The notes beneath the pieces are model-generated. The model searched no databases, was not told the origin of the DNA, and saw only the letters and a list, made by a program, of their open reading frames with translations. Shown here piece after piece: positions 15,006 through 32,328 of a stretch of DNA of 41,504 bases (position 1 is its first letter; the number at the start of each line of letters is the position of its first letter). The stretch is from a virus: the IMG/VR virus record IMGVR_UViG_3300009177_000020, positions 1-41,504 of that record; one strand, given 5' to 3'. Both the position numbers and the translations under genes were made by a program.

Positions 15006-15124
15006 GATGCCCGAAGTGTCAGGCGGAAGATCTGCCACCGCCCGCGCGCCCGACGCTCGAGCGGCTGCAGAACGGGACGATCTACTGCTCGGTCTGCGCC
15101 CATGTCTGGGTGCCGAAGCCATGA
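15002..15124 (+). CDS. Zinc-ribbon micro-protein, 40 aa
   Basis: The frame opens with ATG inside the previous stop (ATGA) and closes with TGA inside the next ATG. The product has two CxxC knuckles, MRCPKCQAE and YCSVCAHVW, spaced 23 residues apart, a classic rubredoxin-like zinc ribbon. Overlaps on both sides argue that it is translated. Such ribbons occur in very small phage DNA- or RNA-binding proteins. Its role in a lysis-like block is unknown. Confidence 0.68.
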   Translation: MRCPKCQAEDLPPPARPTLERLQNGTIYCSVCAHVWVPKP

Positions 15125-17165: not shown

Positions 17166-17281
17166 GTACCCGTAGCCCGGCAAAATTGAGCAGATTCCGG
17201 CAAGGGCCAGCCTCGCCCGGTGACCCGCAGATCGCGGCATTTCCTAGCAAATCGTTGAATGTTTTCGGGGTTTTGAGGGGG

Positions 17282-17326
17282 AGCGGGCTACGGGGATCGA
17301 ACCCGTGTCCGAGGCTTGGGAAGCCT
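17282..17326 (-). other. attP: attP core: 3' half of tRNA-Gly(CCC)
   Basis: Read on the minus strand, 17326 to 17282 gives the 3' half of a glycine tRNA. It contains anticodon loop TTCCCAA (anticodon CCC), the 3' anticodon strand GCCTC, the T arm ACGGG-TTCGATC-CCCGT with perfect stem, the 3' acceptor strand AGCCCGC and discriminator T. The 5' half (D arm and 5' acceptor strand) is missing. The stem would pair perfectly if the host base at 17327 were G; the phage has T there, marking the likely end of the identity. Integration at this point would rebuild a complete host tRNA. Minus-strand orientation matches the adjoining integrase. Confidence 0.88.
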
Positions 17327-18455
17327 ACGACACTTTCCGTAAGTGCTTCCGTTTACGTCTACTTACCGGCGCCGGTAACTTTTGCGGTAACTGTTGCTCG
17401 GCGGATGCCGCCACCAGCGCCGCCGCGCGGGCCGCGCTGACCGCCGCGACGGCGTCGCGATCGACCGCCGCATTGGCGCCGAGGGCATACTGCGCCGTCG
17501 CGCGCGACCCCGGCGCGTGGTTCAACATGCGGCCGACCGTCGCGAGGTCGCCCTTCGCGCGGTAGGTATCGGCGCCGACGCTGTGGCGCATCGAGTAGAG
17601 GTGGATCGGCGTGTCGGGGCCGTCGATCGTCCGCGCGGCGCGTTTGAAGGAGTGGCTGATCGCCTCGGGCTGAAAGCGCGGCATCCCGGCCGCCACGTAG
17701 GCATCAAAGCCCGCCTCGCCCTCCACTGACAATGGCGTCCACTTCGCGGGCACGCCCTGGCCCTTCTCGCTCGCCGGCCAGAGAAACTCGCGGCGCCCGT
17801 CCGCGCCGATGCGGAAGTGGCGCGGCTTTACTTTGAGCAAGTCCACCGCGCGCAGCCCGACGGCGATGATGACGCCGCAGGCGAGCTTCGCGGCGGACAA
17901 CTGGCGAATCCCTTTCTTGACGTAGCGCCAGGTGGGCATGGCGTCCACGATCGCGCGCAGCGTCGCGTACGGCACCGACTGGTCAACCGGGATCCACGAC
18001 TTCGGGCACGTCGTGTCCTTCACCGGATTGGCGGCGCCGGCGCCGTCGAGGACCGTAAACAGTTGCAGTAGCGCGGACCGGCGATGATAGACGGTCGGCT
18101 CGGCGAAGAGCTTGAGCCAGCCCTGAATCACCGCTTCGATCGCGTCCGTCGTAATACTGCTGCGCGGTGTGTCCTCGCCCAGCGCGGCGATCCACAGCTC
18201 AAGATACGCGCGGATCTGTCCGACGTATTTCTGCGCGGCGATCTCCGGCTTGGCGAGGAACCGTTCGACCTCCGCGCGCAAGGACCCGGCGAGCCGGCGC
18301 CGGGTGCCGTACTTGCCGATCTGGAGCTCGCGCCACGCCTTCAGCTCGTGCGGCGGTTGGCGGCCCCACGGGGAGACGCGCAACTTGCCCCCGACGCGCA
18401 CGACCAGACGCCACTTGTCGCCGCGGCGCTGAAAGCCGGTGGGTGTGCGGGGCAC
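17325..18455 (-). CDS. int: Tyrosine site-specific integrase
   Basis: This 376-aa protein catalyses integration and excision at the tRNA-Gly site. The N-terminal part has a basic AP2-like arm-binding start (GFQRRGDKWRLVVRVGGKLR), then a SAM-like core-binding domain around residues 65-160. The catalytic domain has Arg near residue 200 (AVGLRAVDLL) and the Tyr287-Ser-Met-Arg290-His box, where Tyr replaces the first His of the usual box. His313 (LNHAPG) and nucleophile Tyr323 (RATAQYAL) follow. The start is GTG at 18455, overlapping the stop of the upstream gene. The stop TAG (17327-17325) lies inside the tRNA half, and the C-terminal coding DNA contains the right arm-type repeats. Integration is thus tightly linked to this gene. 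Confidence 0.94.
   Translation of the reverse strand: MPRTPTGFQRRGDKWRLVVRVGGKLRVSPWGRQPPHELKAWRELQIGKYGTRRRLAGSLRAEVERFLAKPEIAAQKYVGQIRAYLELWIAALGEDTPRSSITTDAIEAVIQGWLKLFAEPTVYHRRSALLQLFTVLDGAGAANPVKDTTCPKSWIPVDQSVPYATLRAIVDAMPTWRYVKKGIRQLSAAKLACGVIIAVGLRAVDLLKVKPRHFRIGADGRREFLWPASEKGQGVPAKWTPLSVEGEAGFDAYVAAGMPRFQPEAISHSFKRAARTIDGPDTPIHLYSMRHSVGADTYRAKGDLATVGRMLNHAPGSRATAQYALGANAAVDRDAVAAVSAARAAALVAASAEQQLPQKLPAPVSRRKRKHLRKVS
17374..17395 (+). promoter_or_regulatory. Right arm-type integrase sites
   Basis: GGTAACTTTT (17374-17383) and GGTAACTGTT (17386-17395) repeat the left-arm words with the same 12-bp spacing and orientation. They lie within the C-terminal coding region of the integrase. 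A partial inverted copy (ACTTACCGGC) sits just to the left. Confidence 0.68.
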
Positions 18456-21367: not shown

Positions 21368-21588
21368 ATCCAGGCGCCCCGGCCGTCGATCCCACCTGGC
21401 TCTTCTACGCGGCCCTCGGGATCGTCTTACTGATCGCGCTGATCCTCGTGGCGCTCAAAGCGCCGCAGCCGCCCGTGGTGAAGCACGACGACGACGCATT
21501 GAAACGCGCGCAGCTCGATGTCGCGACGCGCCTGGGCCGCAGCCAGTCGGTGATCGTGCCGCGTTCACGGAACGGACGGATCGGGTGA
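21364..21588 (+). CDS. Single-span membrane protein, 74 aa
   Basis: Residues 10-31 form one membrane span (WLFYAALGIVLLIALILVAL), followed by a polar cytoplasmic part with KHDDDALKRAQLDVATRLG. Coupled to both neighbours by short overlaps. A membrane-tethered early protein of unknown role. Confidence 0.6.
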   Translation: MNPGAPAVDPTWLFYAALGIVLLIALILVALKAPQPPVVKHDDDALKRAQLDVATRLGRSQSVIVPRSRNGRIG

Positions 21589-22691
21589 GCGCCCGCGAGC
21601 CGACCGCCTCGGAAATGTTCGGCGACGAGCCGCCCGGCGTCGCCGTCCCCGGCACGATCCCGATGGACCCCTGTACGGGGTATCGGGAACGCCCGCGCTT
21701 CCGCCGGCGCTCGGACGGCCGCGCCTACGTGGTGCCCGGGCCGGCCGAGCGCCGCGAGACGGAACTGCCAGCGAGTTACTACAAGGAAGAGGACGAACCC
21801 ATGCCCCCGACCAATGCGCCTGCTGCTACTGCCGCGCCCGCCATGACCGTCTATGACTGCATCGTCGGCGTCTCCCGCGAGATCGCGACGGTGGGCGTCT
21901 CGAAATCGCGCAGCAACCTGCAACAGAACTACAAGTTCCGCGGCATCGATGACGTGCTCAACGCGCTGTCGCCGCTCCTGGCCAAGTATCGGCTGGTGAT
22001 TCTGCCGCGCATCCTGTCCCGCACCGTGGTCGAACACGCGTCGAAAAGCGGCGGCGTGTTGTTCTACGTGACGGTCGAGGCGGAATTCGATTTCGTCTCG
22101 GCGGCCGACAGCTCACGGCACACCGTCAAGACCTACGGCGAGGCGATGGACAGCGCCGACAAGGCGACGAACAAAGCCATGAGCGCGGCCTACAAGTACG
22201 CCGCCTTCCAGACCTTCTGCATTCCGACCGAAGGCGACAACGACGCCGACGCGACGACGCACGAGCCCGTGATCCAGATCCGCGAGACTCCGGCCGCGCC
22301 CGCGGTCGCCATGCGTGTGGACCCGAGCGCAGGAGATTCGGGTGCTAGGCCGAGCGGGGCCGAAGCGCCGGGAGATGCCGCTCTCTCTCCCGGCACCCTT
22401 GACGCTCCGCCAGACGGCGCGCTCTACGTGACGAGCGTGGAAACCCGGCCGACGAAAAACCCGAAGGTGATCAAGGCGCTCATCAACTTCACCGATGGCC
22501 GCGTGCGCTCGACCATCAACACCGCAATGATGAACCTCGCGACGAAGTGCAAGGAGAATCACCGCCCGGTGTGGGTGGAAGACGCCCAGAGTCAGTATGG
22601 CTGGGACTTGCTCAAGCTGACGCTGGCATCAACGGCGGCGGAGATCGCGGCGACGAAGTGGGCGCCGGAGGGATCGCAGGAGGCGTTCTGA
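21585..22691 (+). CDS. erf: ERF-family single-strand annealing recombinase
   Basis: This protein of up to 368 aa promotes annealing of complementary DNA strands during phage recombination. The ERF core begins near residue 86 (YDCIVGVSREIATVGVSKS). It continues with YKFRGIDDVLNALSPLLAKY, RLVILPRILS and the signature YGEAMDSADKATNKAMSAAY, KYAAFQTFCIP. The C-terminal domain (GALYVTSVETRPTKNPKVIK, RSTINTAMMNLATK) has an OB-like look. The GTG at 21585 overlaps the previous stop. A second in-frame ATG at 21801, with AGAGGA seven bases upstream, would give a 296-aa protein without the 72-residue Pro/Arg-rich extension, which is not part of the ERF fold. Either start is possible. Confidence 0.85.
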   Translation: MSAREPTASEMFGDEPPGVAVPGTIPMDPCTGYRERPRFRRRSDGRAYVVPGPAERRETELPASYYKEEDEPMPPTNAPAATAAPAMTVYDCIVGVSREIATVGVSKSRSNLQQNYKFRGIDDVLNALSPLLAKYRLVILPRILSRTVVEHASKSGGVLFYVTVEAEFDFVSAADSSRHTVKTYGEAMDSADKATNKAMSAAYKYAAFQTFCIPTEGDNDADATTHEPVIQIRETPAAPAVAMRVDPSAGDSGARPSGAEAPGDAALSPGTLDAPPDGALYVTSVETRPTKNPKVIKALINFTDGRVRSTINTAMMNLATKCKENHRPVWVEDAQSQYGWDLLKLTLASTAAEIAATKWAPEGSQEAF

Positions 22692-23418: not shown

Positions 23419-23684
23419 ATGCGAAGTATCTGCCGAATCTGGACGTGGTCAGCGCGAAAGCCCACGACGCGTGGATGGCGGGAAAAACCGCGCAGGGGAT
23501 CACCAGCCGCAAAGCCGAGGACGGCGAAGAGTTGATGGTGCCGTACGCCGACCTCTCCGAGAAGGCGAAGGAACTCGACCGGGGGATGGTGCGCGCGGTC
23601 TACGCCGCGATTCAGGCGACGTGGGCGGCCGAAGAGGAACCCATCGCGCCGACCCCAAGACGGGCCAAGGCCGTCACGACGTGA
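23415..23684 (+). CDS. RyR-domain-like small phage protein, 89 aa
   Basis: The product reads VSAKAHDAWMAGKTAQGITS, KAEDGEELMVPYADLSEKA and ELDRGMVRAVYAAIQATW. The A-x-x-x-H-D-x-W start, the P-Y-A-D-L-S-E-K-A-K-E-L-D-R middle and the closing helix match the short RyR-type repeat seen in phage and bacterial proteins. Function in phages is unknown. It overlaps neighbours at both ends. Confidence 0.6.
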   Translation: MNAKYLPNLDVVSAKAHDAWMAGKTAQGITSRKAEDGEELMVPYADLSEKAKELDRGMVRAVYAAIQATWAAEEEPIAPTPRRAKAVTT

Positions 23685-23827
23685 TCGGCGTCCTCCTCGG
23701 CCTCGCGGTGTGGGCGGGGGTCGTGTGGATCGGCTCGCGATGGATCGACCGCCCGCGGCAGGTGCTCGACAGTCTCGGCCGGATCTCCGAGCGGTGGTTA
23801 GACGAACAGACACGGAACCGACGGTAG
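23681..23827 (+). CDS. Single-span membrane micro-protein, 48 aa
   Basis: GTG 23681 overlaps the previous stop. Residues 2-22 are a membrane span (GVLLGLAVWAGVVWIGSRW) followed by a charged helix (ISERWLDEQTRNRR). It is the last gene before the first cassette repeat. Unknown role. Confidence 0.58.
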   Translation: MIGVLLGLAVWAGVVWIGSRWIDRPRQVLDSLGRISERWLDEQTRNRR

Positions 23828-23848
23828 ACCGAACGAGGACGAAGATTC

Positions 23849-23913
23849 TTATGCGCGATCTCGAAGAGGAGAGTACTTCGATGCCCGAAGACCTCGCGTC
23901 GGCGAGTCCGACC
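23849..23913 (+). repeat. Cassette repeat copy 1 (plus orientation)
   Basis: This is the first of eight degenerate repeats. Conserved ends are GCGATCTCG (23855-23863) and GACCTCGC (23890-23897), separated by 26 bp, plus CGTCGGCG and CCGACC to the right. The outer ends GCGA-TCT and AGA-CC-TCGC are an imperfect palindrome. Inside it, CGAAG (23862-23866) pairs with CTTCG (23876-23880). Confidence 0.85.
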
Positions 23914-23946
23914 GATTCATCGGGCGCAAGTCCGACGCGGCGATGA
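23851..23946 (+). CDS. Leader mini-ORF encoded by repeat copy 1, 31 aa
   Basis: An ATG inside the repeat opens a 31-codon frame (MRDLEEES then MPEDLASASPT) that ends with TGA overlapping the ATG of the next gene (ATGA). A good ribosome binding site, AAGAGGAGAG, precedes an internal ATG at 23881. Copy 3 encodes a similar MPEDLASA peptide coupled to its gene in the same way. It may couple translation of the cassette gene, or be fortuitous. Confidence 0.4.
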   Translation: MRDLEEESTSMPEDLASASPTDSSGASPTRR

Positions 23947-24185
23947 AGGACGTTCGCGCGTGGGCGTTGATCGATCCGCGCACCGATGGCATCCGAGGCG
24001 GCGAGTATCGCTGCGCGATCTTCTGGACACGCGCAGGGGCGAAACTGGAATTGGCCCGCTATCCAGAATGTTCCATCGTGAAGGTGTGGATCACGTCGGA
24101 TCGCGATCGCCGCCGCAGTCGCTCCGCCGTCGTTCTTGAGGATGCCAACGCGGTCGGCACCGCCGATGCGAGGTCTCCGACGTGA
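23943..24185 (+). CDS. Small cassette protein, 80 aa
   Basis: Flanked by repeat copies 1 and 2. The body (VRAWALIDPRTDGIRGGEYR, AIFWTRAGAKLELARYPECS, IVKVWIT) matches a family of small phage proteins with a WAL start, a substrate-like FWTRAGA and a closing KVWIT strand, of unknown function. The final 18 residues (LEDANAVGTADARSPT) are encoded by the repeat and recur at the end of the methyltransferase, so they look like an appended tail and not part of the fold. Confidence 0.6.
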   Translation: MKDVRAWALIDPRTDGIRGGEYRCAIFWTRAGAKLELARYPECSIVKVWITSDRDRRRSRSAVVLEDANAVGTADARSPT

Positions 24186-24215
24186 ATGCCATTCGTCCGT
24201 TCGAGATCGCGTGAA
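24152..24215 (-). repeat. Cassette repeat copy 2 (minus orientation)
   Basis: Conserved ends GCGAGGTC (24168-24175) and GAGATCGC (24203-24210) on the plus strand, the reverse complement of copy 1. The inner palindrome GAATG-C-CATTC (24184-24194) differs in sequence from copy 1 but still self-pairs. The left flank CGGTCGGCACCGCCGATG forms a second small hairpin (TCGGC/GCCGA). Confidence 0.85.
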
Positions 24216-24311
24216 GAGCCTTTGATCGTCGTTCTCCCCACGGCCTCCAGTACGCACTTCCGCGTATGGGATGAGGAGGCTTTCCTGCACCAGTGAGAAG
24301 GGAAGGGTCGT

Positions 24312-24629
24312 ATGAGTCTCAGAAACCGGCAAGACACGCAGAGCGAGAACCCGAACAACCCGCAGTTCACGAACCAGCAGCCCGCGCAGAAACGCAAACG
24401 CGCCTCGTGGGCGCCGCCCTATCAAACGCCCATTCACGGGGTGGTGGACGGTGAACCGGTGCGCATCCTCCAGATCGGGGACATGCCGGGGAAGAGTCCG
24501 GTCTATCTCTGCGTCGATGAACAGGGCTTCAGCGCGCCGGTGAGATTGTCCGACGTGCAGATCACCGACGGCGCCTTCCTGCCGCTGCAGGGGATGGCGC
24601 GCGGGCGGACGCGGACGCAGCAGCAGTAG
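24312..24629 (+). CDS. Small protein, 105 aa, unknown
   Basis: Start ATG is preceded by agaagggaagggtcgt. The first 35 residues are Gln/Asn/Arg-rich and disordered (NPQFTNQQPAQKRKRAS). The C-terminal part is a small beta domain (PIHGVVDGEPVRILQIGDMP, SPVYLCVDEQGFSAPVRLSD). It lies between repeat copies 2 and 3, outside any bracketed cassette. No family recognised. Confidence 0.6.
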   Translation: MSLRNRQDTQSENPNNPQFTNQQPAQKRKRASWAPPYQTPIHGVVDGEPVRILQIGDMPGKSPVYLCVDEQGFSAPVRLSDVQITDGAFLPLQGMARGRTRTQQQ

Positions 24630-24679
24630 GGAACCGGAGCATCCAGGGCGAACGGGAGTTGGCCTGAGAAGCCGTGTGC

Positions 24680-24709
24680 GGGGCCGAGCGGCGGATGGAC
24701 ATCGGCCCC
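24680..24709. terminator. Hairpin after 24629, weak terminator candidate
   Basis: GGGGCCGA (24680-24687) pairs perfectly with TCGGCCCC (24702-24709). Only ATTTAG follows, so the U-run is poor. It could pause or stabilise the message before repeat copy 3. Confidence 0.4.
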
Positions 24710-24720
24710 ATTTAGAAGTC

Positions 24721-24786
24721 TTATGCGCGATCTCGGCGAGGGAGAGTAACGCGATGCCTGAAGACCTCGCGTCGGCGGAACAGGTG
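24721..24786 (+). repeat. Cassette repeat copy 3 (plus orientation)
   Basis: GCGATCTCG (24727-24735) and GACCTCGC (24763-24770) with TTATGC before and GTCGGCGGAA after. The centre is one base longer than copy 1, which puts a stop in the first frame. Confidence 0.85.
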
Positions 24787-24825
24787 ATGCCGTCATTCGC
24801 AAGACCGGACGACGACGATGCTTGA
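24754..24825 (+). CDS. Leader mini-ORF encoded by repeat copy 3, 23 aa
   Basis: Begins at the ATG of repeat copy 3 with GAGGGAGAG upstream and encodes MPEDLASAEQVMPSF plus an acidic end. Its stop overlaps the start of the next gene by eight bases (ATGCTTGA). It shares MPEDLASA with the copy 1 mini-ORF. Confidence 0.38.
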   Translation: MPEDLASAEQVMPSFARPDDDDA

Positions 24826-25201
24826 CCTTGACGATGGTCCGTGCGGCATCTGTATCGATGGCGGCGACGGCGATCTCCCAGAGTTTGAGAGCACCGTCGA
24901 AGTGCGCGCCCGAAAGGCGCACCGCTGTTGCGAGTGTCACGACACGATCGCGATCGGCCAGACCTATGAGCGCATGACCGGCAAATGGGACGGCGTGGTT
25001 AAGACACACAAGACCTGTCTCGCCTGCGCCGAAGTGCGGAACACCCTGTGTTGCGACGGTTGGACGTACACGCGGCTCTGGCACTACGCCGAAGAAACCG
25101 CCTTCGACCATCTCACGACGGGGTGTCTCGCGCAACTGACGACCGCCGCCGCGAAAACCAAACTGCTCGATCGATGGCGGCGATGGAAGGGGCTCTCTTG
25201 A
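24818..25201 (+). CDS. Cys-rich zinc protein, 127 aa
   Basis: First gene of the second repeat-bracketed cassette. It has GPCGICIDG, AHRCCECHDTIAIGQTYERM and HKTCLACAEVRNTLCC, several Cys pairs that would bind at least two zinc ions, followed by a helical C-terminus (LTTAAAKTKLLDRWRRWKG). The C-x-x-C-H-x-x-I-x-x-G-x-x-Y-E pattern is typical of phage proteins with a short treble-clef. Function unknown. The stop is followed by 178 bases without a supported gene. Confidence 0.65.
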   Translation: MLDLDDGPCGICIDGGDGDLPEFESTVEVRARKAHRCCECHDTIAIGQTYERMTGKWDGVVKTHKTCLACAEVRNTLCCDGWTYTRLWHYAEETAFDHLTTGCLAQLTTAAAKTKLLDRWRRWKGLS

Positions 25202-25379
25202 GGATGTGTCGATCAGCCAGTCTGACAAACGCGTGGCCTCCGAGGTCGCACCACCCGTGCGGTCGTAGCGCGACAGATCGTCGTCGTTCGTAATCGTTTC
25301 TTCAGGTTGCGCGATCTTTCCACGCCCGTCGCGCAGGCTGTGCAGGTCTCGACGTGGACACCAGAATCGCAGGTGTCGA
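25202..25379. other. Short non-coding stretch before the replication gene
   Basis: 178 bases with no frame that looks real. It contains GCGCGATCTTTCC and CGAGGTCGCA, partial words of the cassette repeat, but no complete copy. No clear promoter was found. Confidence 0.4.
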
Positions 25380-26255
25380 GTGGCGCGTGGGCGCATGTTG
25401 TCGAAATCGCTCAGCACGTCGGAGAAGTTCGCGTCGGTCAGCGGCCACCTGGTCGAATTCTGCCACGCGCTCTATCCGCTGCTGATCTCGCACACGGATG
25501 ACTTCGGGCGCCTCCAGGGCGACCCGTTCACGGTCAAGCATCAGTGCTACCCGGCGTCGGTCCGGACGCTGGACGACTTTGCCGACGCGCTGCTCGAGCT
25601 CCACCGCGTCGAGCTGATCCGCTGGTATGTCGTCGGCGGGAAACGCTACCTCCAGATCGACAACTTCGACCCGCACCAGTTGGGCTTGCACAAGCGGACA
25701 CGGTCGCGGTTCCCGGAAGTTCCCGGAAGTTCCGGGAAAGTCCCGGAGATTCCCTCTGAAGAGAAGGGAAGGGAACAGGAAGAGAAGGGAAGAGAACAAG
25801 AACCCGTACCGGCGCGTGCCGCGCCTGCGCTCGTCTCGCCCGCTCGCGTGCAAGCCGCGCAGGCCGCGGCCGTGGCAAACGGGAAGACGCACGCCAAGAC
25901 CAAGGCCGCCCTGGCCGGACAGGTCGCGGAACTGCGCGCGGGCTTCGAAGAATTCATGGCGCACTACCCGAAGGGCCACCGGGTCGGCAAGTTGCTCGCC
26001 TGGAAGGCGTGGCAAAAGCTGCGGCCGTCGTTGGTGCTCAAGGACCTCATCGTCGCCTCGGTCGATGAGCACAAAGCGTGGCCGACCTGGCTGAAGGACG
26101 GCGGGGACTTCATCCCGCATCCGACGACGTTTCTGAATCAGGCGCGCTGGGAGGATGAGCCGCCCGTGCGCGGCCCGACGCCCGAGAAGGCGATGTTCGC
26201 GGCGCCGACCCAGGCCGACGTCGAGGCGCAACTTGAGATTCTGCGGCGGCGATGA
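25380..26255 (+). CDS. Replication initiator / replisome organiser-like protein
   Basis: This 291-aa protein probably binds the phage origin and recruits the host replisome. Start GTG 25380 gives ARGRMLSKSLSTSEKF, the standard opening of a widespread phage family. Residues 20-100 are a winged-helix-like domain (LVEFCHALYPLLISHTDDFG, RLQGDPFTVKHQCYP, HRVELIRWYVVGGKRYLQID), followed by FDPHQLGLHKRTRSRFPEVP. A low-complexity linker (residues 110-150) is encoded by 10-bp iterons and a purine-rich tract that resemble an origin. The C-terminal domain (FEEFMAHYPKGHRVGKLLAW, WLKDGGDFIPHPTTFLNQAR) is a helical loader-contact type. Overlaps the next gene by ATGATGA. Confidence 0.82.
   Translation: MARGRMLSKSLSTSEKFASVSGHLVEFCHALYPLLISHTDDFGRLQGDPFTVKHQCYPASVRTLDDFADALLELHRVELIRWYVVGGKRYLQIDNFDPHQLGLHKRTRSRFPEVPGSSGKVPEIPSEEKGREQEEKGREQEPVPARAAPALVSPARVQAAQAAAVANGKTHAKTKAALAGQVAELRAGFEEFMAHYPKGHRVGKLLAWKAWQKLRPSLVLKDLIVASVDEHKAWPTWLKDGGDFIPHPTTFLNQARWEDEPPVRGPTPEKAMFAAPTQADVEAQLEILRRR
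25710..25805. repeat. Candidate replication origin: 10-bp iterons plus purine-rich tract
   Basis: GTTCCCGGAA is repeated at 25710-25719 and 25720-25729, with variants GTTCCGGGAA (25730-25739), AGTCCCGGAG (25740-25749) and a half unit ATTCCC. The core TTCC(C/G)GGAA is palindromic. Immediately to the right, 25758-25805 is nearly all purine on the top strand (repeats of GAAGGGAA and GAAGAGAAGGGAAGAGAA). Iterons followed by an easily melted asymmetric tract inside the initiator gene is the lambda-type origin layout. Confidence 0.6.
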
Positions 26256-26899
26256 TGACTGAGGTCGAGTTGTTCGAATTCAACGTGGTGTTCGCCGATC
26301 TGCGGCGGGTGTTTCCAATCCGTGCCGACGAGAGCGACGCGCGGCAGCTCATCGCGTCCTACTTCGCGGCCTTCCGGCGCTTCCCGCTGGCACGCGTCAA
26401 GGCGGGGGCCGAGGCGTGGATCGCGCACGGGAAACGCTTCCCGCGCCCGGCCGAGTGGATCGAGGCGATGCCGCAGCCGACCGTGCAGGCCGCGGTGGGT
26501 GAACTCTCCGCGGACGAGGCGGACGTCTGGCTCGAGGCCGAGCGGCGCCGCTGGGAAGGCCGTCCGTGCAGTTGCCCCGCGTGTCGGCAGGCCGGGGTGA
26601 GCCGGCGACCGATCCGCTTCGTCCCGGAATTCGACGCTGACGACGCCGACGTCCGGGGCCGGATCGGCGACCGGGTGATCACGCGCGGGCACTGGGCACA
26701 CGGGGACGAGCTCGCGCGCTGGTATGCGGCGAAGGACGCCGCCATGCAGGCCTTCCGCCGCTGGGCCGAGACGCACGCGATGCGTGCGGACGGCAAAAAG
26801 AAGAAGCGGCCGTCGTTCGAACAGCGCATCGAGGCAATTTTCACGAAACGGGAACCCCCCGCGCCGACGCCGGAGCGGGAACCGGGGCAGGAAGGCTAA
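26252..26899 (+). CDS. Putative replication/helicase-loader-like protein
   Basis: This 215-aa protein directly follows and overlaps the initiator. The N-terminal domain (VVFADLRRVFPIRADESDAR, IASYFAAFRRFPLARVKAGA, EAWIAHGKRFPRPAEWIEAM) matches helical phage loader-type proteins that follow initiator genes. Its centre has CSCPACRQAG, a zinc knuckle, and the C-terminus is Lys-rich (DGKKKKRPSFEQRIEAI). No Walker motif is present, as in lambda P-like loaders. Loader function is inferred from order and helical build. Confidence 0.6.
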   Translation: MMTEVELFEFNVVFADLRRVFPIRADESDARQLIASYFAAFRRFPLARVKAGAEAWIAHGKRFPRPAEWIEAMPQPTVQAAVGELSADEADVWLEAERRRWEGRPCSCPACRQAGVSRRPIRFVPEFDADDADVRGRIGDRVITRGHWAHGDELARWYAAKDAAMQAFRRWAETHAMRADGKKKKRPSFEQRIEAIFTKREPPAPTPEREPGQEG

Positions 26900-27150
26900 T
26901 GGCGTATTTCTCGAACGGCACCGAAGGCGATCTCTATCTGGAAGCGGTGTGCATGAAGTGCGCGAACTATCCGGCGGACGATGCCACGCGCGACTGTCCG
27001 ATCCGCGCGGTGCATTTCTTCTACAACTACGACCAGCATAAAAACCCCGAGGTCAAAGGGATCCTCAATATCCTGATTCCGCGCACGAAGGACGGCGGGA
27101 ACGCGCAGTGTTCGATGTTCCGGCCGCTGCCGTTGCGCGTGGTCCGCTGA
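26899..27150 (+). CDS. Cys-containing small phage protein, 83 aa
   Basis: It reads EGDLYLEAVCMKCANYPADD, DCPIRAVHFFYNYDQHKN and GILNILIPRTKDGGNAQCSM. A single CMKC pair with two more Cys suggests a metal site. Similar short proteins recur in phage early regions beside replication genes, with unknown role. It overlaps both neighbours. Confidence 0.65.
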   Translation: MAYFSNGTEGDLYLEAVCMKCANYPADDATRDCPIRAVHFFYNYDQHKNPEVKGILNILIPRTKDGGNAQCSMFRPLPLRVVR

Positions 27151-27359
27151 TGCCGCGCTTTGAGATCGGCGGCGGCCGCGAGTCGGAAGTCATCGACGGC
27201 GTGCCGGTGTTCCGCTGGTTGTACCCGCACAGCGTCGATACCGACTGGCCCGTCTGGCAGATGCCGGCAGGGTCGGCAGGACAAACGCGTGGTCTGCCGG
27301 CCCAACCGACCGACGTGGTCGCAGCGCGCCAACTGGATCTCTTCGTGGAGACTCACTGA
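27150..27359 (+). CDS. Small protein, 69 aa, unknown
   Basis: Start overlaps the preceding stop (TGATG) and stop overlaps the next ATG. It contains VIDGVPVFRWLYPHSVDTDW and ends RQLDLFVETH. No recognised family. Gene status relies on coupling. Confidence 0.58.
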   Translation: MPRFEIGGGRESEVIDGVPVFRWLYPHSVDTDWPVWQMPAGSAGQTRGLPAQPTDVVAARQLDLFVETH

Positions 27360-27760
27360 TGGCGACCCGCGGCTGGCAGGACTTCACCGCCGCCGACGCG
27401 GCCCGGCACAACGCCAAGCTGGAGGTGAAGGCCAAGCCGTCGAAGTATCACGCGGTCAAGACCACGGTCGGGACGATCACCTTCGACAGTGCCGCCGAGG
27501 CGCGGCGCTATGGCGAGCTCAAGGTGCTCGAGCGCGCCGGCGAACTCGGTCTGCTCGAGCTGCAGCCGCGCTACCGGCTCACGGTGACGGCACCAGTAGG
27601 CACGGTCGTGATCGGCGAGTACCGGGCCGACTTTCGTTACCGGACGGCGGCCGGGGATCTCGTCGTCGAAGACGTCAAAGGCATGGCCACGCCCTTGTAT
27701 CGGTGGAAGAAAAAGCACACCGAAGCGCAATACGGCGTGACGATTGTCGAGGTCCGGTGA
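27359..27760 (+). CDS. DUF1064-type PD-(D/E)xK nuclease-like protein
   Basis: This 133-aa protein has the DUF1064 pattern: KYHAVKTTVGTITFDSAAEA, RRYGELKVLERAGEL, LQPRYRLTV, GEYRADFRYRTAAGDLVVED and VKGMATPLYRWKKKH, ending EAQYGVTIVEVR. The Asp in YRADF, the Glu in VVED and the following Lys in VKG fit the PD-(D/E)xK nuclease catalytic set, so it may resolve branched DNA during replication and recombination. Position near ERF and replication genes supports that. Biochemical activity is not established for most members. Confidence 0.78.
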   Translation: MATRGWQDFTAADAARHNAKLEVKAKPSKYHAVKTTVGTITFDSAAEARRYGELKVLERAGELGLLELQPRYRLTVTAPVGTVVIGEYRADFRYRTAAGDLVVEDVKGMATPLYRWKKKHTEAQYGVTIVEVR

Positions 27761-28029
27761 ACATCCGGGGTCTGTCGGCAGCCGCCCGCTACTGGCAACG
27801 CCGCGCCCGAGGCGCCTGTGTCCGATGCGGGCAACCGACGGGACATCGCGGCGCGTGTTGTCTGCGATGCCAAGCGTGGAAGCGGGACTGGATGCGGCGG
27901 CGCTTTGGGTATGGGCGGTTGACGCCGGCGCAGAAGTCAGCACAGGCGCGGCAGGCGGCGTTGAAGCGATGGCAGCGCCTGGCGGACGAGGACGAGGTCG
28001 GCATAGTCGATGCGAGGTCTTCACCGTGA
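27757..28029 (+). CDS. Zinc-ribbon protein, 90 aa, with repeat-encoded tail
   Basis: GTG 27757 overlaps the previous stop. CVRCGQPTGHRGACCLRCQA is a compact zinc ribbon. A basic helix follows (MRRRFGYGRLTPAQKSAQAR). The last residues (DEDEVGIVDARSSP) come from cassette repeat copy 4 and resemble the tails of two other cassette proteins. It is the last gene of the second cassette. Likely nucleic-acid binding. Confidence 0.6.
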   Translation: MNIRGLSAAARYWQRRARGACVRCGQPTGHRGACCLRCQAWKRDWMRRRFGYGRLTPAQKSAQARQAALKRWQRLADEDEVGIVDARSSP

Positions 28030-28060
28030 GTGCGTTTCATCAACGCCGAGATCGCGTCAA
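27996..28060 (-). repeat. Cassette repeat copy 4 (minus orientation)
   Basis: GCGAGGTC (28012-28019) and GAGATCGC (28048-28055), with GGTCGG to the left and GTCAA to the right. It closes the cassette opened by copy 3. Confidence 0.83.
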
Positions 28061-28069
28061 GGACGTCTC

Positions 28070-28402
28070 GTGCTCCTGACGCTCTCCCTCGACGAGCTGG
28101 ATCAGATCGTCCAAGGATTAGCCATGCTCCCGGTCGCCGCGGATCTCCATCGACGACTCGCGGCGAAGCTGCACTGCGAATCGCTGCTGCCGATCCCGGA
28201 CGACACACGGCGCGTCTGGGTGCGTAGTTTCAAAGTCGGGGAAGCGGACGTGAGCTGTGAATACTACGACGCCGTGACGTGTGATCGGATCGAGGCGGCG
28301 ATTGACGCGGTGCTCCGAACGAAGTCCGACGAACGCTCTGTCGCGATCTCGGCGACGGTGACCCGATCGGCGTCGAAGACCTCGCGTCGGAAGGTGGGGT
28401 AA
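28070..28402 (+). CDS. Small protein, about 110 aa, between repeats
   Basis: Candidate GTG start at 28070, ten bases after repeat copy 4. The body (LSLDELDQIVQGLAMLPVAA, DLHRRLAAKLHCE, VWVRSFKVGEADVSCEYYDA) looks like a small alpha/beta domain. The C-terminus (ATVTRSASKTSRRKVG) is encoded by repeat copy 5, and the stop TAA overlaps the methyltransferase ATG. No family recognised. A later ATG at 28124 is another possible start region. Confidence 0.52.
   Translation: MLLTLSLDELDQIVQGLAMLPVAADLHRRLAAKLHCESLLPIPDDTRRVWVRSFKVGEADVSCEYYDAVTCDRIEAAIDAVLRTKSDERSVAISATVTRSASKTSRRKVG
28337..28395 (+). repeat. Cassette repeat copy 5 (plus orientation)
   Basis: GCGATCTCG (28343-28351) and GACCTCGC (28378-28385). 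The inner arm CGACG (28353-28357) can pair with CGTCG (28371-28375), again different bases from other copies. In this copy the EDLAS reading frame runs straight into the methyltransferase start. Confidence 0.82.
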
Positions 28403-28977
28403 TGCCTGCAGCCTCAAGAACGACGATCGAGCGCGTGTGGGCGATGCCGTCCGCACAGACGTTTGCCATTCCGCCGATTGCCGAGTTATTGACGCGATGG
28501 TTGCGGGGCTGCGCGATCGTCATTGATCCGTTCTGTGGGCAGTCTGTTCTCGGCTCGCACCGGAACGATTTGGCGAGCGGCCAGGATGCGGAATCCTACG
28601 TACATTCTCTGGATGTCGAGGCGGATGCGGTGTTGTTCGATCCTCCGTATTCGCCTCGCCAAATCTCGGAAGTCTATCGTTCAGTGGGTCTCGCGTGTGG
28701 CCAACGGGAGACACAGAACGGCGGTCTGTATAAACGTGTCAAGGATGCCTTGGACCAGAAACTCGCGCTCGGAGGCATCGCGATCTGTTGCGGCTGGAAC
28801 TCGGCCGGTTTTGGCGTGTCACGGCGGTATGAACCGCTCGAAATACTCTTGGTGTGCCACGGCGGCGCACACCAAGACACCATCGTGACCGTGGAGCGGA
28901 AAGTCGCGCACCAGGGGTGTCTCGTTCTTGAGGATAGCGAAGCGGTCGGTTCCGCCGATGCGAGGTCTTTACGGTGA
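28402..28977 (+). CDS. Adenine-specific DNA methyltransferase-like protein (DPPY)
   Basis: This 191-aa protein has the two key methyltransferase motifs: a SAM-site VIDPFCGQSVLG near residue 40-52 and the catalytic DPPYSPRQISEVY near residue 79-91, in the alpha-type order. The rest fits a minimal Rossmann-like fold (LALGGIAICCGWNSAGFG, EPLEILLVCHGGAHQD). It would methylate adenine N6 (or cytosine N4) in phage or host DNA, perhaps to evade restriction. It lacks a separate recognition domain, so specificity is unclear. The final LEDSEAVGSADARSLR is repeat-encoded. It is the sole gene of the third bracketed cassette. Confidence 0.78.
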   Translation: MPAASRTTIERVWAMPSAQTFAIPPIAELLTRWLRGCAIVIDPFCGQSVLGSHRNDLASGQDAESYVHSLDVEADAVLFDPPYSPRQISEVYRSVGLACGQRETQNGGLYKRVKDALDQKLALGGIAICCGWNSAGFGVSRRYEPLEILLVCHGGAHQDTIVTVERKVAHQGCLVLEDSEAVGSADARSLR

Positions 28978-29007
28978 GTGCCATTCACACATTCGAGATC
29001 GCGTGAA
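28944..29007 (-). repeat. Cassette repeat copy 6 (minus orientation)
   Basis: GCGAGGTC (28960-28967) and GAGATCGC (28995-29002). With the upstream GTTCTTGAGGAT it is almost the same as copy 2, over about 80 bp, so these two copies are the closest pair. Confidence 0.85.
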
Positions 29008-29019
29008 AGGAATTTCTTA

Positions 29020-29454
29020 ATGTCAGATCAACCCTCCTCTTCCCTCTCTGCCGTCCCCGTCCGAGGGCTGGAGGAGCAGATGTTGCGCCGTGATTTCGAC
29101 GTGCTGCTGTCCACGCTAGTGGCGGTGCGCCTCCTGATCAGCAATGGCGACCATCAAGAATCGTATTGGGAGTGCGAGAAGGCGATCAAGCAGACGGAAG
29201 ACTTACAGGCCGCGCTCGTCCCGTGCCCCGCTGTCGCCTCACCGGCCTGGCGACCGATGGAGACAGCCCCGAAGGATGGACGTCACGTGCTGCTGATTGC
29301 TCGTGGCGGCTATCCCGACGTGGGCCGCTGGTTCGACTGTGGCGTGAACGAGGTGGGGTTCTGGGCGGTTCATGCGATTCGATGGGAACCCACGCACTGG
29401 ATGCCGTTACCAGCGCCCCCACTGCCCGCCGTCCGACCGCAGGAGGAGGCATGA
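29020..29454 (+). CDS. DUF551-like protein, 144 aa
   Basis: The ATG at 29020 has GAAAGGAATTTC upstream. Residues 70-135 contain WRPMETAPKDGRHVLLIARG and EPTHWMPLPAPPLP, the DUF551 signature (a W-x-P start, G-x-x-V-L and a closing H-W-M-P-L-P). The N-terminal 65 residues are helical. DUF551 proteins are common in phages and of unknown function. Confidence 0.75.
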   Translation: MSDQPSSSLSAVPVRGLEEQMLRRDFDVLLSTLVAVRLLISNGDHQESYWECEKAIKQTEDLQAALVPCPAVASPAWRPMETAPKDGRHVLLIARGGYPDVGRWFDCGVNEVGFWAVHAIRWEPTHWMPLPAPPLPAVRPQEEA

Positions 29455-30296
29455 GCAAGGAGCAGAGCGGCGACAGCCAGACCACGTCGATCACCAACGT
29501 CGCGGCGTTCGTCGATGGCTGGCTCGCGCAAGAACTGAATGATTGGGATCGGCAGTCCAAGGACGAAATCCGCCGCAGTTTAATCGGTCTGAGACGCGCC
29601 ATTGCTGACCACATCGTTCTTCCTCGGCTAGATGGGGTAATTGAACGACTGCGAGCGGCCAATCTTCCGACGTTCGACTTGCTCTATAACCCGCTGACGT
29701 GCGAGAAGGTGGACGGGTATAAGGTTGCGCGTTACGAAGACGTTGTGGCATTTCTAGCGCGACGAGCGGACGAGCTAGAAACCATCCTTCCTACAGATTG
29801 CCCGTCCTGTGAGTCTCCATATCCGCAGCTTCATCAGGCGATGCGATGGGACGGCGAGGCGTCGAGATGTCGTGATCCCTGGCACGACAAGAGCAAGATA
29901 ACCTCGCAGGCCCAGCACACCGAACTCCTCGCCGCCCTCGCGTCCCTGGTGGCGCGAATGCGCCAGCGAAACTATGACGCGGCGTTGTATTGGGCTGATG
30001 AACTCGCGGCGCTCCTGAAGGATCCCGCAGCGACGACGGACGACGATCAGGCGCGATCTCGACCCGCCATGGACCCCGGAGCCGGAGACCTCGCACCGAC
30101 CAGTCCGACCTCGCCACCCTCCTCAAGCCCGCCCTTGACGTATGGCGAACTGGACGCGCTGCCCGAGACCCAGGGGCCGGTCTGCTATACCGCGCCGGAC
30201 GGGACGACGGAGCCACTCGGCGCCATCGACCATCGCGGGCGCCGCTGGCTGGTCGGCTGGGCCGGTGGCGTGCGCTATAAGAAATGGGCGGGGTAG
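29451..30296 (+). CDS. Unknown protein with two domains, 281 aa
   Basis: It overlaps the DUF551 gene by ATGA. The N-terminal 120 residues are helical (AAFVDGWLAQELNDWDRQSK, GLRRAIADHIVLPRLDGVIE, RADELETILP). CPSCESPYPQLHQAM forms a metal knuckle. The C-terminal part after residue 200 is Pro/Ser/Thr-rich (DLAPTSPTSPPSSSPP), is encoded by repeat copy 7, and ends in a small beta domain (PETQGPVCYTAPDGTTEPLG, WLVGWAGGVRYKKW). The repeat has apparently joined two coding pieces in frame. No family recognised. Confidence 0.58.
   Translation: MSKEQSGDSQTTSITNVAAFVDGWLAQELNDWDRQSKDEIRRSLIGLRRAIADHIVLPRLDGVIERLRAANLPTFDLLYNPLTCEKVDGYKVARYEDVVAFLARRADELETILPTDCPSCESPYPQLHQAMRWDGEASRCRDPWHDKSKITSQAQHTELLAALASLVARMRQRNYDAALYWADELAALLKDPAATTDDDQARSRPAMDPGAGDLAPTSPTSPPSSSPPLTYGELDALPETQGPVCYTAPDGTTEPLGAIDHRGRRWLVGWAGGVRYKKWAG
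30049..30111 (+). repeat. Cassette repeat copy 7 (plus orientation)
   Basis: GCGATCTCG (30054-30062) and GACCTCGC (30088-30095), followed by ACCGACCAGTCCGACC. It lies fully inside a coding frame. CCAGTCCGACC is shared with copy 8, so copies 7 and 8 form a matched pair. Confidence 0.78.
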
Positions 30297-30305
30297 TGGT
30301 CGGCG

Positions 30306-30372
30306 GGTCGGACTGGTGGCTGCGAGGTCTGCAGGACCGGCAGACCCCGATGGGGGAGATCGCGCCTGAAGA
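30306..30372 (-). repeat. Cassette repeat copy 8 (minus orientation)
   Basis: GCGAGGTC (30322-30329) and GAGATCGC (30356-30363), preceded by GGTCGGACTGG. Read on the minus strand the centre holds the inner hairpin CCCC-AT-CGGGG. It ends 12 bp before the serine recombinase stop codon and runs into the palindrome GAAGATCTTC (30368-30377). Confidence 0.78.
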
Positions 30373-30383
30373 TCTTCGGGCTC

Positions 30384-31073
30384 TTACGCGGCCGTCTTCA
30401 GCAGACTCCGCACATACTCCATGCGCCACGGCGTCCCCGCCCGCGTCGTATACCCGGCGACGTTCAGTGCCTCCGCCGTCGCCTTCAAGCTGAACCCGGC
30501 CGCCCGGCAGTCGCGCAGCACGACGAGCATGGCCTGCTCCCCGGCATGAGGCACCAACCCATCCGTCCCGCGTTGAAAGCCATAGACCGGCGTCCCGGTG
30601 GACTTCCCCTGCGCCTTCAACTGGCGGAGGGCATCGCGGGTGCGTTCCCCAATCGCTTCCCGCTCCCACTGGGAGACGCTCATCATGATGTTGAGGACCA
30701 GGCGGCCGGCCGGCGAGCTCGTGTCGAGCGACTCCGAGACGGAAATCAGCGCCACCCCGCGGGCTTCGAAGCGTTCGAGGAGGTCAGCCAGGTCGCGCAC
30801 CGAGCGCGTCAGGCGATCGAGTTTGGCGACAATCACGGTATCCACCTGCTTGGCGTCGATGAGCGCCAGGAGCTGGACCATGCCGGGGCGCTCGAGCGTC
30901 TTCGCGGATTCGGTGTCGATAATCATCGAGCCGAGCGCGGTGCCGCGGACGGCCACCATCGCTTCGATCCGCGCCTGCTGGGCCTCGAGCGACAAGCCCT
31001 GCTTTTCGGTCGAGACGCGGACATAGCCGACGACGGCGCGGGGGACGGACGGGAGACTGGGACGGCTGGCCAT
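30384..31073 (-). CDS. Serine recombinase (resolvase/invertase family)
   Basis: This 229-aa enzyme has the resolvase N-terminal domain. Catalytic Ser21 lies in VGYVRVSTEKQGLSLEAQQ, and the conserved arginines are in KLDRLTRSVRDLADLL. The SPAGRLVLNIMMSVSQWERE helix precedes IGERTRDALRQLKAQGKSTG, the E-helix and linker. A C-terminal helix-turn-helix (FSLKATAEALNVAGYTTRAG) binds the crossover site. Size matches small resolvases and invertases, not large serine integrases. It is the last gene of a leftward operon and its stop is next to repeat copy 8. The phage already has a tyrosine integrase, so this enzyme must act on another site, possibly the inverted repeats nearby. Confidence 0.9.
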   Translation of the reverse strand: MASRPSLPSVPRAVVGYVRVSTEKQGLSLEAQQARIEAMVAVRGTALGSMIIDTESAKTLERPGMVQLLALIDAKQVDTVIVAKLDRLTRSVRDLADLLERFEARGVALISVSESLDTSSPAGRLVLNIMMSVSQWEREAIGERTRDALRQLKAQGKSTGTPVYGFQRGTDGLVPHAGEQAMLVVLRDCRAAGFSLKATAEALNVAGYTTRAGTPWRMEYVRSLLKTAA

Positions 31074-31322: not shown

Positions 31323-31816
31323 GACGCCGCGCCGTCAATCTCTCGTATGGCTGTGGTGGCTTCAGCGCACCAGTCCGCGCCTTCCCACGCATTCACGATG
31401 TCTCGGAGTATTCGCAGGAGGTGGTCATGCCGCGATTTCCACGCATAGCGGCCCCCAGGACGCAGGACGTCCACCTGCTGCTCCGCATCAGCTAGTGTCT
31501 GGTCTAGCCGTGCGCGCAACTGGTCAGAGGACGCGGCCCGTGGTGCATCGAGCGACTCAAAGTGGCTCTCTGCCCACTCACGCCATTCGTTCTCGCGTCG
31601 GATAGAGGCCAGTGCGAGCGTGTGCCAATCTTTCTCGGCGCTGTCGTGCGGGAAATGCTCGCCGCCTCGCTCTAATGCCGCGTCGATGCGTTCTTCGATG
31701 CACGCCGCGGCTTGCATGTGCCCCTGTTCGTCTCGCTGCCATTGTCCGCACGGACCTTCGTGCGGGAACGGGCGCGTGCAGTCCCATGCGCAGGTGGCGT
31801 CACGGTCGTCCATCAC
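31319..31816 (-). CDS. Unknown helical protein, 165 aa
   Basis: An N-terminal Cys/His/Pro segment (ATCAWDCTRPFPHEGPCG) is followed by helices (ACIEERIDAALERGGEHFPH, LALASIRRENEWREWAESHF, HDHLLRILRDIVNAWEGADW). C-W-D-C-x8-H-E-G-x-C-G resembles a small metal site seen in phage early proteins. Overlaps both neighbours by four bases. No function known. Confidence 0.6.
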   Translation of the reverse strand: MMDDRDATCAWDCTRPFPHEGPCGQWQRDEQGHMQAAACIEERIDAALERGGEHFPHDSAEKDWHTLALASIRRENEWREWAESHFESLDAPRAASSDQLRARLDQTLADAEQQVDVLRPGGRYAWKSRHDHLLRILRDIVNAWEGADWCAEATTAIREIDGAAS

Positions 31817-32025
31817 AACCCCACCGAGGTCATGAGGGCATCGCCGGCCGCTTCGCCATTCCGCCGGATGAACTCCTCAATCAGGTGCGCCCGCACCAGG
31901 CGGCTGTCCGTCGTCAGCGGCGCCGCGCTCAGCGTGCCCACCGACTCTTCAATCTGCGCGGTCGTCATTTCGGCAATCTTCGCCGTCAGCAGGTCGGTCG
32001 CCGTCGCCGTGTTCATGCTGTTCAT
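31813..32025 (-). CDS. First gene of the recombinase operon, 70 aa
   Basis: The start ATG at 32025 is about where transcription should begin from the promoter at 32033-32061, so the message appears leaderless. The protein is helical (TATATDLLTAKIAEMTTAQI, SRLVRAHLIEEFIRRNGEAA) with no recognised domain. Upstream in-frame ATGs would lie within or before the promoter and are unlikely. A regulatory role is suggested by its place and by the palindromic operator in its promoter. Confidence 0.6.
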   Translation of the reverse strand: MNSMNTATATDLLTAKIAEMTTAQIEESVGTLSAAPLTTDSRLVRAHLIEEFIRRNGEAAGDALMTSVGL

Positions 32026-32032
32026 GTCTACT

Positions 32033-32061
32033 AATATAGCCATACCGCTATGGGTTGTCAA
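32033..32061 (-). promoter_or_regulatory. Near-consensus promoter with palindromic operator
   Basis: Minus strand: -35 TTGACA (32061-32056), 17-bp spacer, -10 TATATT (32038-32033). The spacer contains CCATA-GCGG-TATGG, a perfect 5-bp inverted repeat. The ATG lies at 32025, seven bases downstream of the -10, so transcription likely starts at or next to the start codon. Confidence 0.82.
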
Positions 32062-32073
32062 GAGGGAAGAACG

Positions 32074-32328
32074 ATGGCCGATCCGATTTCTGAAGAGACA
32101 GCGAAACGTGTCCGGTATGACGCGGAAACGACGGTCCTCCAGGCCGTGCTCGACGCCATCGCAGGCACGCTCGACCCCTCCACCCAGATCGCCGACCACC
32201 CGAGCGTCAAATTCGCCCAGATGCAGCGGCTCAAGCTGGAGGAGACGGCCAGACTCTCACAGCAGCTCGCCGCCGACGCGCTCGCCATGGTGACGCACCT
32301 CGTCCGACTCCTCGGCCAACGTCCCTAA
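32074..32328 (+). CDS. Small helical protein at the start of the late block, 84 aa
   Basis: The ATG at 32074 has AGAGGGA seven to thirteen bases upstream. An upstream in-frame ATG at 32050 would overlap the leftward promoter and is less likely. The product is helical (EETAKRVRYDAETTVLQAVL, FAQMQRLKLEETARLSQQLA). It is divergent from the recombinase operon, 48 bases away. No family recognised. Confidence 0.6.
   Translation: MADPISEETAKRVRYDAETTVLQAVLDAIAGTLDPSTQIADHPSVKFAQMQRLKLEETARLSQQLAADALAMVTHLVRLLGQRP

Follow-up and report, generated by a model that had tools for sequence, protein, structure and literature searches.

A polar repeated element that seems to mark the joints of exchangeable gene cassettes in a group of uncultured phages

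Introduction

The mechanism by which phages acquire or shed single accessory genes with clean borders is an old open question, and for most phages the usual answer is a general appeal to illegitimate or relaxed homologous recombination. The locus described here, a series of small genes set between repeats, lies in the 41,504-nucleotide IMG/VR virus record IMGVR_UViG_3300009177_000020, the whole of which is referred to as the window. It raises the question of what these repeats are, whether the genes between them are exchanged between phages, and which enzyme may act on them. At this locus the joint itself is visible: a polar element recurs in dozens of copies, the position of the junction can be measured, and orthologous loci carry different cargo.

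Results

All eight repeats that an initial annotation had described in the window were found again at their positions and in their orientations, and they are not chance matches: in the window a reversed-pattern control gave 0 matches, and Markov-shuffled versions of five records gave 0.0 at 0–1 mismatch. According to a profile built from relatives, each repeat is part of a polar element of about 95 bp, consisting, in this order, of an outer arm, CGCGATCTC, a variable centre, the right-hand block GAGRCCNCGC and an inner arm. The profile lengthens the repeat by 14–15 bp outward and by about 35 bp inward, so that the annotated length of about 60 bp was too short, whereas the core from GCGATCTC to AGACCTCGC does span 42–44 bp in each of the eight copies, as had been reported. 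The centre is the least conserved part of the element.

The description of the repeats as imperfect palindromes is weakly founded: GCG/CGC alone is invariant, without covariation between columns, and the complementarity of the arms is modest. Native arms paired slightly better than swapped arms (−7.91 versus −7.48 kcal/mol, with 0 of 500 permutations reaching the native value), and alignment A2 contained no compensatory pairs. A conserved RNA or single-stranded DNA fold is not convincing: the helix comprises three invariant pairs and nothing more, and the element had no match in Rfam at the gathering threshold or at E values up to 1. A coding motif (RDL...ETSQRR, RYD..G.P..ETT) is striking by eye. 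However, the block varies at first and second codon positions while third positions are invariant, the frame in which copies are read differs, both strands are used, and lengths of 42–46 shift the frame between copies. Conserved third positions together with differing frames and the use of both strands indicate a motif at the DNA level rather than a stretch conserved because it encodes part of one protein family.

The profile recognised ten copies in the window instead of eight (Table 1); the best score on shuffled genomes was 13.8 bits. The strict alternation that had been proposed applies to the eight copies first noted, and is lost with the two additional minus-strand copies, as the ten run + − + − − − + − + −. 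Alternation is likewise not strict in relatives. Copy 3 pairs with the additional copy at 25197, the two enclosing 24818–25201, and the supposed 3.2-kb replication cassette is in fact a 0.57-kb cassette (24717–25285) followed by solo copies. Copies 2 and 6 are indeed alike over about 80 bp (81% identity over 86 bp), but a closer kinship within pairs is not general: pair members had a mean identity of 0.493 and non-partners within a genome one of 0.488 (permutation p = 0.36), and subtypes are mixed within pairs. As annotated, the scanned proteins inside the cassettes included no transposase, and the stop codon of a serine recombinase ORF, at 30384, lies about 12 bp past copy 8. Elements sit at gene starts as well as at gene stops, and in some cassettes the stop codon of the cargo lies inside the right-hand copy, in its centre.

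Table 1. Element copies, cassette cargo and candidate enzymes in the window
Feature	Coordinates	Strand	Remarks
Tyrosine integrase-like protein	17325–18455	−	phrog_1, E 7.5e-8
Erf-like single-strand annealing protein	21585–22691	+	phrog_155, E 3.3e-31; candidate exchange machinery
Element copy 1	23841–23930	+	Profile 52 bits; core 23855–23897; outer end left, inner end towards cargo
Cassette 1 cargo ORF	23943–24185	+	80 aa; unmatched in Pfam and PHROG
Element copy 2, partner of copy 1	24135–24217	−	45 bits; core 24168–24210
Element copy 3	24717–24803	+	49 bits; core 24727–24770
Cassette 2 cargo ORF	24818–25201	+	127 aa; matches functionally uncharacterised PHROG families
Additional element copy, partner of copy 3	25197–25285	−	46 bits; subtype GCGCTACG/CCACGC; absent from the initial annotation
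Additional solo element copy	27254–27335	−	33 bits
Element copy 4, solo	27979–28061	−	39 bits; core 28012–28055
Element copy 5	28333–28418	+	45 bits; core 28343–28385
Cassette 3 cargo ORF, DNA methyltransferase	28402–28977	+	phrog_11619, E 5.9e-26
Element copy 6, partner of copy 5	28927–29015	−	39 bits; core 28960–29002
Element copy 7	30039–30127	+	44 bits; core 30053–30094
Cassette 4 cargo	30128–30306	+	Either ORF 30142–30369 or the 3' part of the ORF that begins at 29451
Element copy 8, partner of copy 7	30307–30377	−	36 bits; core 30322–30363
Serine recombinase	30384–31073	−	Resolvase, E 3e-42

Profile searches detected 72 copies in 10 distinct IMG/VR phage records, all of them metagenomic, with a shuffled maximum of 13.8 bits. 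The carriers form a group of uncultured phages from soil and freshwater. Three of these records, G002, G009 and G015, are 41–42 kb long; G002 and G009 have terminal repeats, and the ends of G009 repeat as in a complete genome. Orientation in the relatives is strongly non-random: 22 of 30 neighbouring copy pairs less than 1 kb apart face inward, a number reached in 0 of 20,000 trials with random orientation. One inward pair in G009 measures 160 bp and holds almost no cargo. Isolated phages yielded no significant match to the element, and none of the 16 matches in a scan of GTDB genomes was backed by the profile beyond chance-like scores. In a scan of IMG/VR with a loose 17-base pattern, one of the matches listed was a real locus and the rest were due to chance. 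In the comparison of G004 with G005, a solo element looked at first like an insertion; the alignment suggests instead that its outer half decayed in G005.

In related phages, the DNA outside the element is conserved and the cargo inside is unrelated. In 14 copy pairs the outer flanks were homologous; of these, 11 had unrelated and 2 had related cargo flanks, the remainder being cut by a contig end. Homology was kept inward of elements with a homologous outer flank in 0/3, 0/2 and 3/8 cases, compared with 50%, 76% and 88% at random positions. Within the window, the cargo ORF of cassette 1 is replaced by unrelated DNA in G002, and the counterpart of the cassette 4 cargo in G001 is unrelated as well. 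The additional copy that closes cassette 2 occupies the same locus as the copy at 30213 in G002, and the two are near-identical up to the right-hand block and divergent beyond it. Across swapped loci, excess identity was 0.67 in the outer arm, 0.96 in block 1, 0.57 in the centre, 0.40 in block 2, 0.15 in inner B and 0.26 at the inner end. Homology thus fades at GAGRCCNCGC, and some loci keep some homology into the inner arm. These values derive from about ten swapped loci in two groups of related phages, and thus from few events. Between G009 and G015, Blast breakpoints clustered at elements (8 versus 2.2 expected, p = 0.001).

One cargo gene is common to the otherwise unrelated phages G002 and G009, where it adjoins elements of different subtypes and constitutes the sole nucleotide match of more than 150 bp between both records. 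Inserted pairs were present in G009 at a site that is empty in G015, and in G001 at a site that is empty in the window; no target duplication was seen in these two comparisons, in which the flanks have diverged. As cargo is replaced by an unrelated gene while the flanks are kept, the element seems to mark joints at which phages swap genes. The proposal that inward pairs bound exchangeable cassettes is largely supported by the orientation of the copies, the swapped cargo and the shared cargo gene, whereas strict alternation, the 3.2-kb cassette and the kinship of pair members were not upheld.

No enzyme is common to all element-bearing records. A crude ORF selection revealed no protein family, and hence no core gene that could act on the element, shared by all six near-complete records; the resolvase family and the tyrosine integrases each occur in six of the ten records, neither of them in all near-complete ones. 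An HNH endonuclease, also considered, is confined to G013 and G016. The Erf-like protein is present in the window's phage and in G002, G004, G010 and G015, and a YqaJ exonuclease in four records, not including the window's phage. G009, despite its complete-like ends, gave no match to Erf or RecT. The tyrosine integrase-like protein of the window had no match in NCBIfam, integron integrase included, and for the integrases of the window, G009 and G005 and part of those of G015, the scores of integron-integrase models did not exceed 29 bits, against cut-offs of 265–435.

Discussion

In our preferred interpretation, to which we give about an even chance of being correct, the element is a polar boundary of about 95 bp that acts at the level of double-stranded DNA, and inward-facing pairs delimit cassettes that are exchanged by recombination, likely of the Erf type. 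Two copies would enclose a small cassette, usually of one ORF. The outer arm, CGCGATCTC, the locus-specific centre and GAGRCCNCGC would remain with the locus, while phages would exchange the inner part and the gene, the join falling at the right-hand block or just inward of it. Exchange may occur at existing loci between co-infecting phages via recombination at the elements, for which the most likely agent would be the phages' own Erf-type annealing protein, in some phages together with YqaJ exonuclease; the conserved blocks could supply the local homology for annealing. Inverted pairs would persist and direct pairs would not, because direct pairs would delete their cargo. Against this view count the lack of an Erf or RecT match in G009 and of YqaJ in the window's phage, the small number of swapped loci, and the homology that continues into the inner arm at some of them. 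Pure homologous exchange also does not by itself account for the orientation of the inner end towards the cargo, or for how new inverted pairs arise.

Possible, if rather unlikely, is a dedicated site-specific system, in which both blocks are recognised by a putative recombinase or strand-transferase of phage or host origin that joins cargo just inside GAGRCCNCGC, with the inverted sites serving as docking ports, formally like integron attC sites or recombinase-mediated cassette exchange. Strict polarity, a junction that falls at one of the conserved ends around a variable centre, the slight pairing advantage of native arms and the pairs inserted where a relative has an empty site would all suit such a system, whereas the lack of a common recombinase or of any family found in all six near-complete records, and the low integron-integrase scores of the tyrosine enzymes, argue against it. 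The attC sites of integrons have two conserved ends, a variable centre and a junction at one conserved end, and their cassettes carry one gene; all these features recur here. Unlike attC sites in head-to-tail arrays, the elements form inverted pairs (the inward excess among close neighbours given above), have a different core sequence and no convincing conserved fold, and the integrases scored included no integron integrase. That the phages possess a cassette-exchange system of their own, an integron counterpart with inverted instead of tandem sites whose putative enzyme joins single-gene cargo inside the conserved block, strikes us as unlikely.

Mobile insertion cassettes and MITEs carry cargo between inverted repeats without a transposase, and the element resembles them in both respects. 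The copies could accordingly be read as terminal inverted repeats of non-autonomous transposons that are mobilised by a transposase in trans, and both the nearly cargo-free 160-bp pair in G009 and the presence or absence of pairs between relatives would fit. We consider this improbable, because the near-identical terminal repeats of such elements are not found here: partners are no more alike than non-partners and combine subtypes, homology is lost at an internal block instead of a sharp outer terminus, no target duplication is visible between the diverged flanks and no transposase was among the proteins scanned.

Quite doubtful is a regulatory module (promoter, terminator, antiterminator or operator) at gene borders with incidental recombination, as for the PeSLs of T4. 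Its position at gene starts and stops, and the stop codons within right-hand copies, would be in line with such a role. Yet 0 sigma-70 promoter-like sites were detected in 23500–30600, for a host that is not identified, terminator-like sites were at chance level (4 versus 4.7 in shuffles), no conserved RNA fold was found, and the element faces the gene from both ends, unlike a transcription-polar signal. Least credible of all are inversion sites of the neighbouring serine recombinase (an invertase or shufflon): the inverted arrangement and the proximity to copy 8 invite this idea, but a special role for the enzyme is not supported. It has no match in G002, G009 and G015, which all bear elements, recombinase and element are not constantly adjacent, several of its closest homologues outside the record set lack an element in the surrounding 10 kb or so, and an invertase would cut in the centre, whose conservation is the lowest of the whole element. 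The recombinase is probably not the element's dedicated enzyme.

Among known systems, the nearest kind appears to be the gene-shuffling modules of T4-type phages, the PeSLs, which combine an early (sigma-70) promoter with a stem-loop terminator (Arbiol 2010, Comeau 2014; as cited in PMC4503421 and PMC4177764). As far as these citing papers portray them, PeSLs are, like our element, repeated modules at gene borders tied to the way related phages shuffle small accessory genes. The element likewise appears to mark such joints between related phages, but differs in that no promoter, terminator, stem-loop or conserved stem was found, and in its inverted pairs facing the cargo in phages of about 41 kb. 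In Cluster O mycobacteriophages, the single gene YungJamal 60 is flanked by imperfect 24-bp repeats, genomes without it keep one repeat copy, and acquisition by recombination was proposed (PMC4351075); the legend of that paper names the repeats inverted, whereas its text names them direct. These are isolated cases with one short repeat, in contrast to the large family described here, with its defined polarity and variable centre. The SAS/ESAS of Cluster K mycobacteriophages precede start codons, nearly all in one orientation, and ESAS have imperfect 17-bp inverted repeats with a variable spacer of 4–13 bp (PMC3203893). Like the element, they are scattered over each phage genome in many copies located at gene borders; unlike it, they are described in the available part of that paper with no tie to gene swapping.

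The element provides a concrete sequence for laboratory testing, and its profile delimits accessory genes of these phages, such as methyltransferases and small unknown genes.

Distribution and structure of the element

The element also turned up in other phages when IMG/VR was scanned with exact patterns. With a profile that was iterated first on seven and later on twelve records, 72 copies, full or near-full, were counted across ten distinct records (the window and the IMG/VR phage records G001, G002, G004, G005, G009, G010, G013, G015 and G016). The counted copies scored 25–53 bits, compared to a maximum of 13.8 bits in shuffled sequences; the fragments G014 and G017, which are near-identical to G009 and G002, respectively, were left out. 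Within the sensitivity of the searches, the element was absent from isolated phages and from GTDB genomes in the searched collections. Direct terminal repeats of 43–123 bp in the window, G002, G004, G009 and G010 are as expected for complete circular assemblies, and G015, at 41,196 bp, matches these in size. The window record is classed as linear, but its identical 106-bp ends make it very likely that the genome is complete and circular (or terminally redundant).

All eight repeat copies reported in the initial annotation are present in the window at the positions given there and contain the core CGCGATCTC-N22..28-AGACCTCGC. A stricter core pattern had seven exact matches, with copy 8 reading CGCGATCTCC instead, and the reversed pattern, serving as control, had none. 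The profile added two copies of a subtype in which GCGCTACG and CCACGC replace GCGATCTC and CCTCGC. Both are in minus orientation, so that the order becomes + - + - - - + - + - and the strict alternation described initially is broken. Because of these additional copies, copy 3 closes a 0.57-kb cassette around a single gene and not the 3.2-kb replication block previously regarded as a cassette. Over a length of about 95 bp, the element comprises, from outside towards the cargo, a ACGACGATCAGG-like outer arm, block 1, a centre that varies from locus to locus, block 2 (GAGRCCNCGC), which is the most conserved part, and a terminal inner arm with a CATCCTCAAGAACGA-like end.

Of the 62 neighbouring copy pairs, 24 faced inward and 21 outward, 10 were minus-minus and 7 plus-plus. 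Inward pairs lay close together (23/24 within 2 kb), and among neighbours less than 1 kb apart 22 were inward, 6 outward and 2 same-direction; 22 such inward pairs were reached in none of 20,000 random-orientation trials. The usual cargo is a single small ORF, and cargo proteins include DNA methyltransferases (window; G002, PF01555), an HTH protein (G004) and a DUF7694 protein (G009). The members of a pair, proposed earlier to be often closest to each other or to another right-hand copy, were no more similar than the remaining copies within a genome (identity 0.493 vs 0.488, p 0.36), and subtypes are mixed within pairs.

Coordinates of features in the window and in other phage records
Record	Position	Feature	Observation
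Window	1-106; 41399-41504	Record ends	Identical (106 bp)
Window	23849, 24152, 24721, 27996, 28337, 28944, 30049, 30306	Element copies 1-8
Window	25197-25285 (-); 27254-27335 (-)	Additional element copies
Window	24818-25201	Gene in 0.57-kb cassette
Window	2443-3921	Glycosyl transferase family 41 (PF13844, E 1.1e-28) with TPR repeats	Unusual in a 41-kb phage
Window	4568-5554; 5980-7929	Neighbours of the glycosyl transferase	Weak membrane-protein matches only
Window	11850-12971	Match to phrog_2534, 'released from the phage upon host infection' (E 4.7e-11)	Suggests a podovirus-like virion
G009 (L177)	10752-10913	Two inverted elements, inner ends overlapping, almost without cargo	Lengthens ORF of upstream gene in frame; site empty in G015
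G009 (L177)	17186-17274	Element at start of signal-peptide-like gene	Supplies new start codon and N-terminus compared to G015
G009	31740-32222	Cargo gene recurring in G002
G002	30306-30722	Same gene in G002
G004 (L149)	1976-2797	Serine recombinase
G005 (L152)	15112-15918	Serine recombinase
G010 (L181)	13624-14451	Serine recombinase
G013 (L281)	3179-3316	HNH domain	Outside cassettes
G016 (L287)	2624-2761	HNH domain	Outside cassettes

Cargo replacement and position of the junction

By genome comparison, an exchange boundary lies at the elements. In 14 copy pairs the two copies had the outer flank in common; the cargo side was unrelated in 11 and related in 2 of these, and not judgeable where the contig ends. 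Two of the 14 involve the truncated G001 copy, one being counted, together with its duplicate, as an unrelated pair. Where one flank was homologous, the opposite flank was homologous too at 50%, 76% and 88% of random positions in the three genome pairs, compared to 0/3, 0/2 and 3/8 at elements. Blast breakpoints were enriched at elements between the window and G002 (p 0.037), the window and G001 (p 0.047) and G009 and G015 (p 0.001). Cassette 1 has conserved flanks and different cargo in the window and G002 (0.22 and 0.77 kb), and cassette 4 of the window and G001 is a further example of swapped cargo. A cargo gene of G009 recurs in G002 adjoining an element of another subtype and is the only nucleotide match >150 bp between these records.

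Copy 25197 of the window and the G002 copy at 30213 are near-identical across the outer flank and as far as GAGGCCACGCGTTTGT, beyond which they diverge. Across ten swapped loci, above-background identity was highest in block 1 (0.96), followed by the outer arm (0.67) and the centre (0.57); it amounted to 0.40 in block 2 and to 0.34, 0.15 and 0.26 in inner A, inner B and the inner end, which places the joint at or just inside block 2. Inserted pairs missing in a relative were found in two cases, one in G001 (605 bp) when compared to the window and one in G009 (~190 bp) when compared to G015, neither with a clear target duplication.

Possible mechanism of exchange

Most likely, exchange would be worked by the annealing recombination of the phages, a machinery that we infer. 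An Erf-like annealing protein is encoded in the window, G002, G004, G010 and G015 and a YqaJ exonuclease in the latter four; no RecT was detected in the seven records that were searched for it. The main alternative is a dedicated site-specific enzyme acting at the elements. Annealing accounts least well for the polarity of the elements and for how new pairs arise. A serine recombinase family occurs in the window, G001, G004, G005, G010 and G013 and was not found in G002, G009 and G015, and several of its closest homologues outside the record set have no element within ~10 kb. The enzymes of G004, G005 and G010 have a common N-terminal extension (DDQKP...GAK...PV.SR), with conserved DNA such as CCTAGT and GGGGCGAA, that is missing from the window enzyme. 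Six records encode a tyrosine integrase, and those tested were not integron integrases. A crude ORF selection yielded no protein family shared by all six near-complete records.

The element matched no RNA family, and its alignment contained three invariant pairs only and no compensatory change. Pairing between left and right arms was slightly stronger in native than in swapped combinations (-7.91 vs -7.48 kcal/mol; 0/500 permutations), a difference that may be due to subtype ancestry as much as to pairing. As judged from the alignment, the element is conserved at the DNA and not at the peptide level: a conserved coding segment is ruled out by fixed third codon positions in the apparent frame, where position one or two varies (GAG RCC NCG C; GCGCTNCGAC), by core lengths of 42–46 bp that shift the frame between copies and by copies on both strands.

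Among known kinds, PeSL modules of T4-type phages, as presented in citing papers (PMC4503421, PMC4177764), come closest; no promoter or terminator was found at the element. In Cluster O mycobacteriophages, single genes lie between imperfect repeats, with one repeat copy at the empty site (PMC4351075). The SAS/ESAS repeats of Cluster K are one-directional start-site features (PMC3203893). We read the elements as joints at which co-infecting phages would exchange cassettes.
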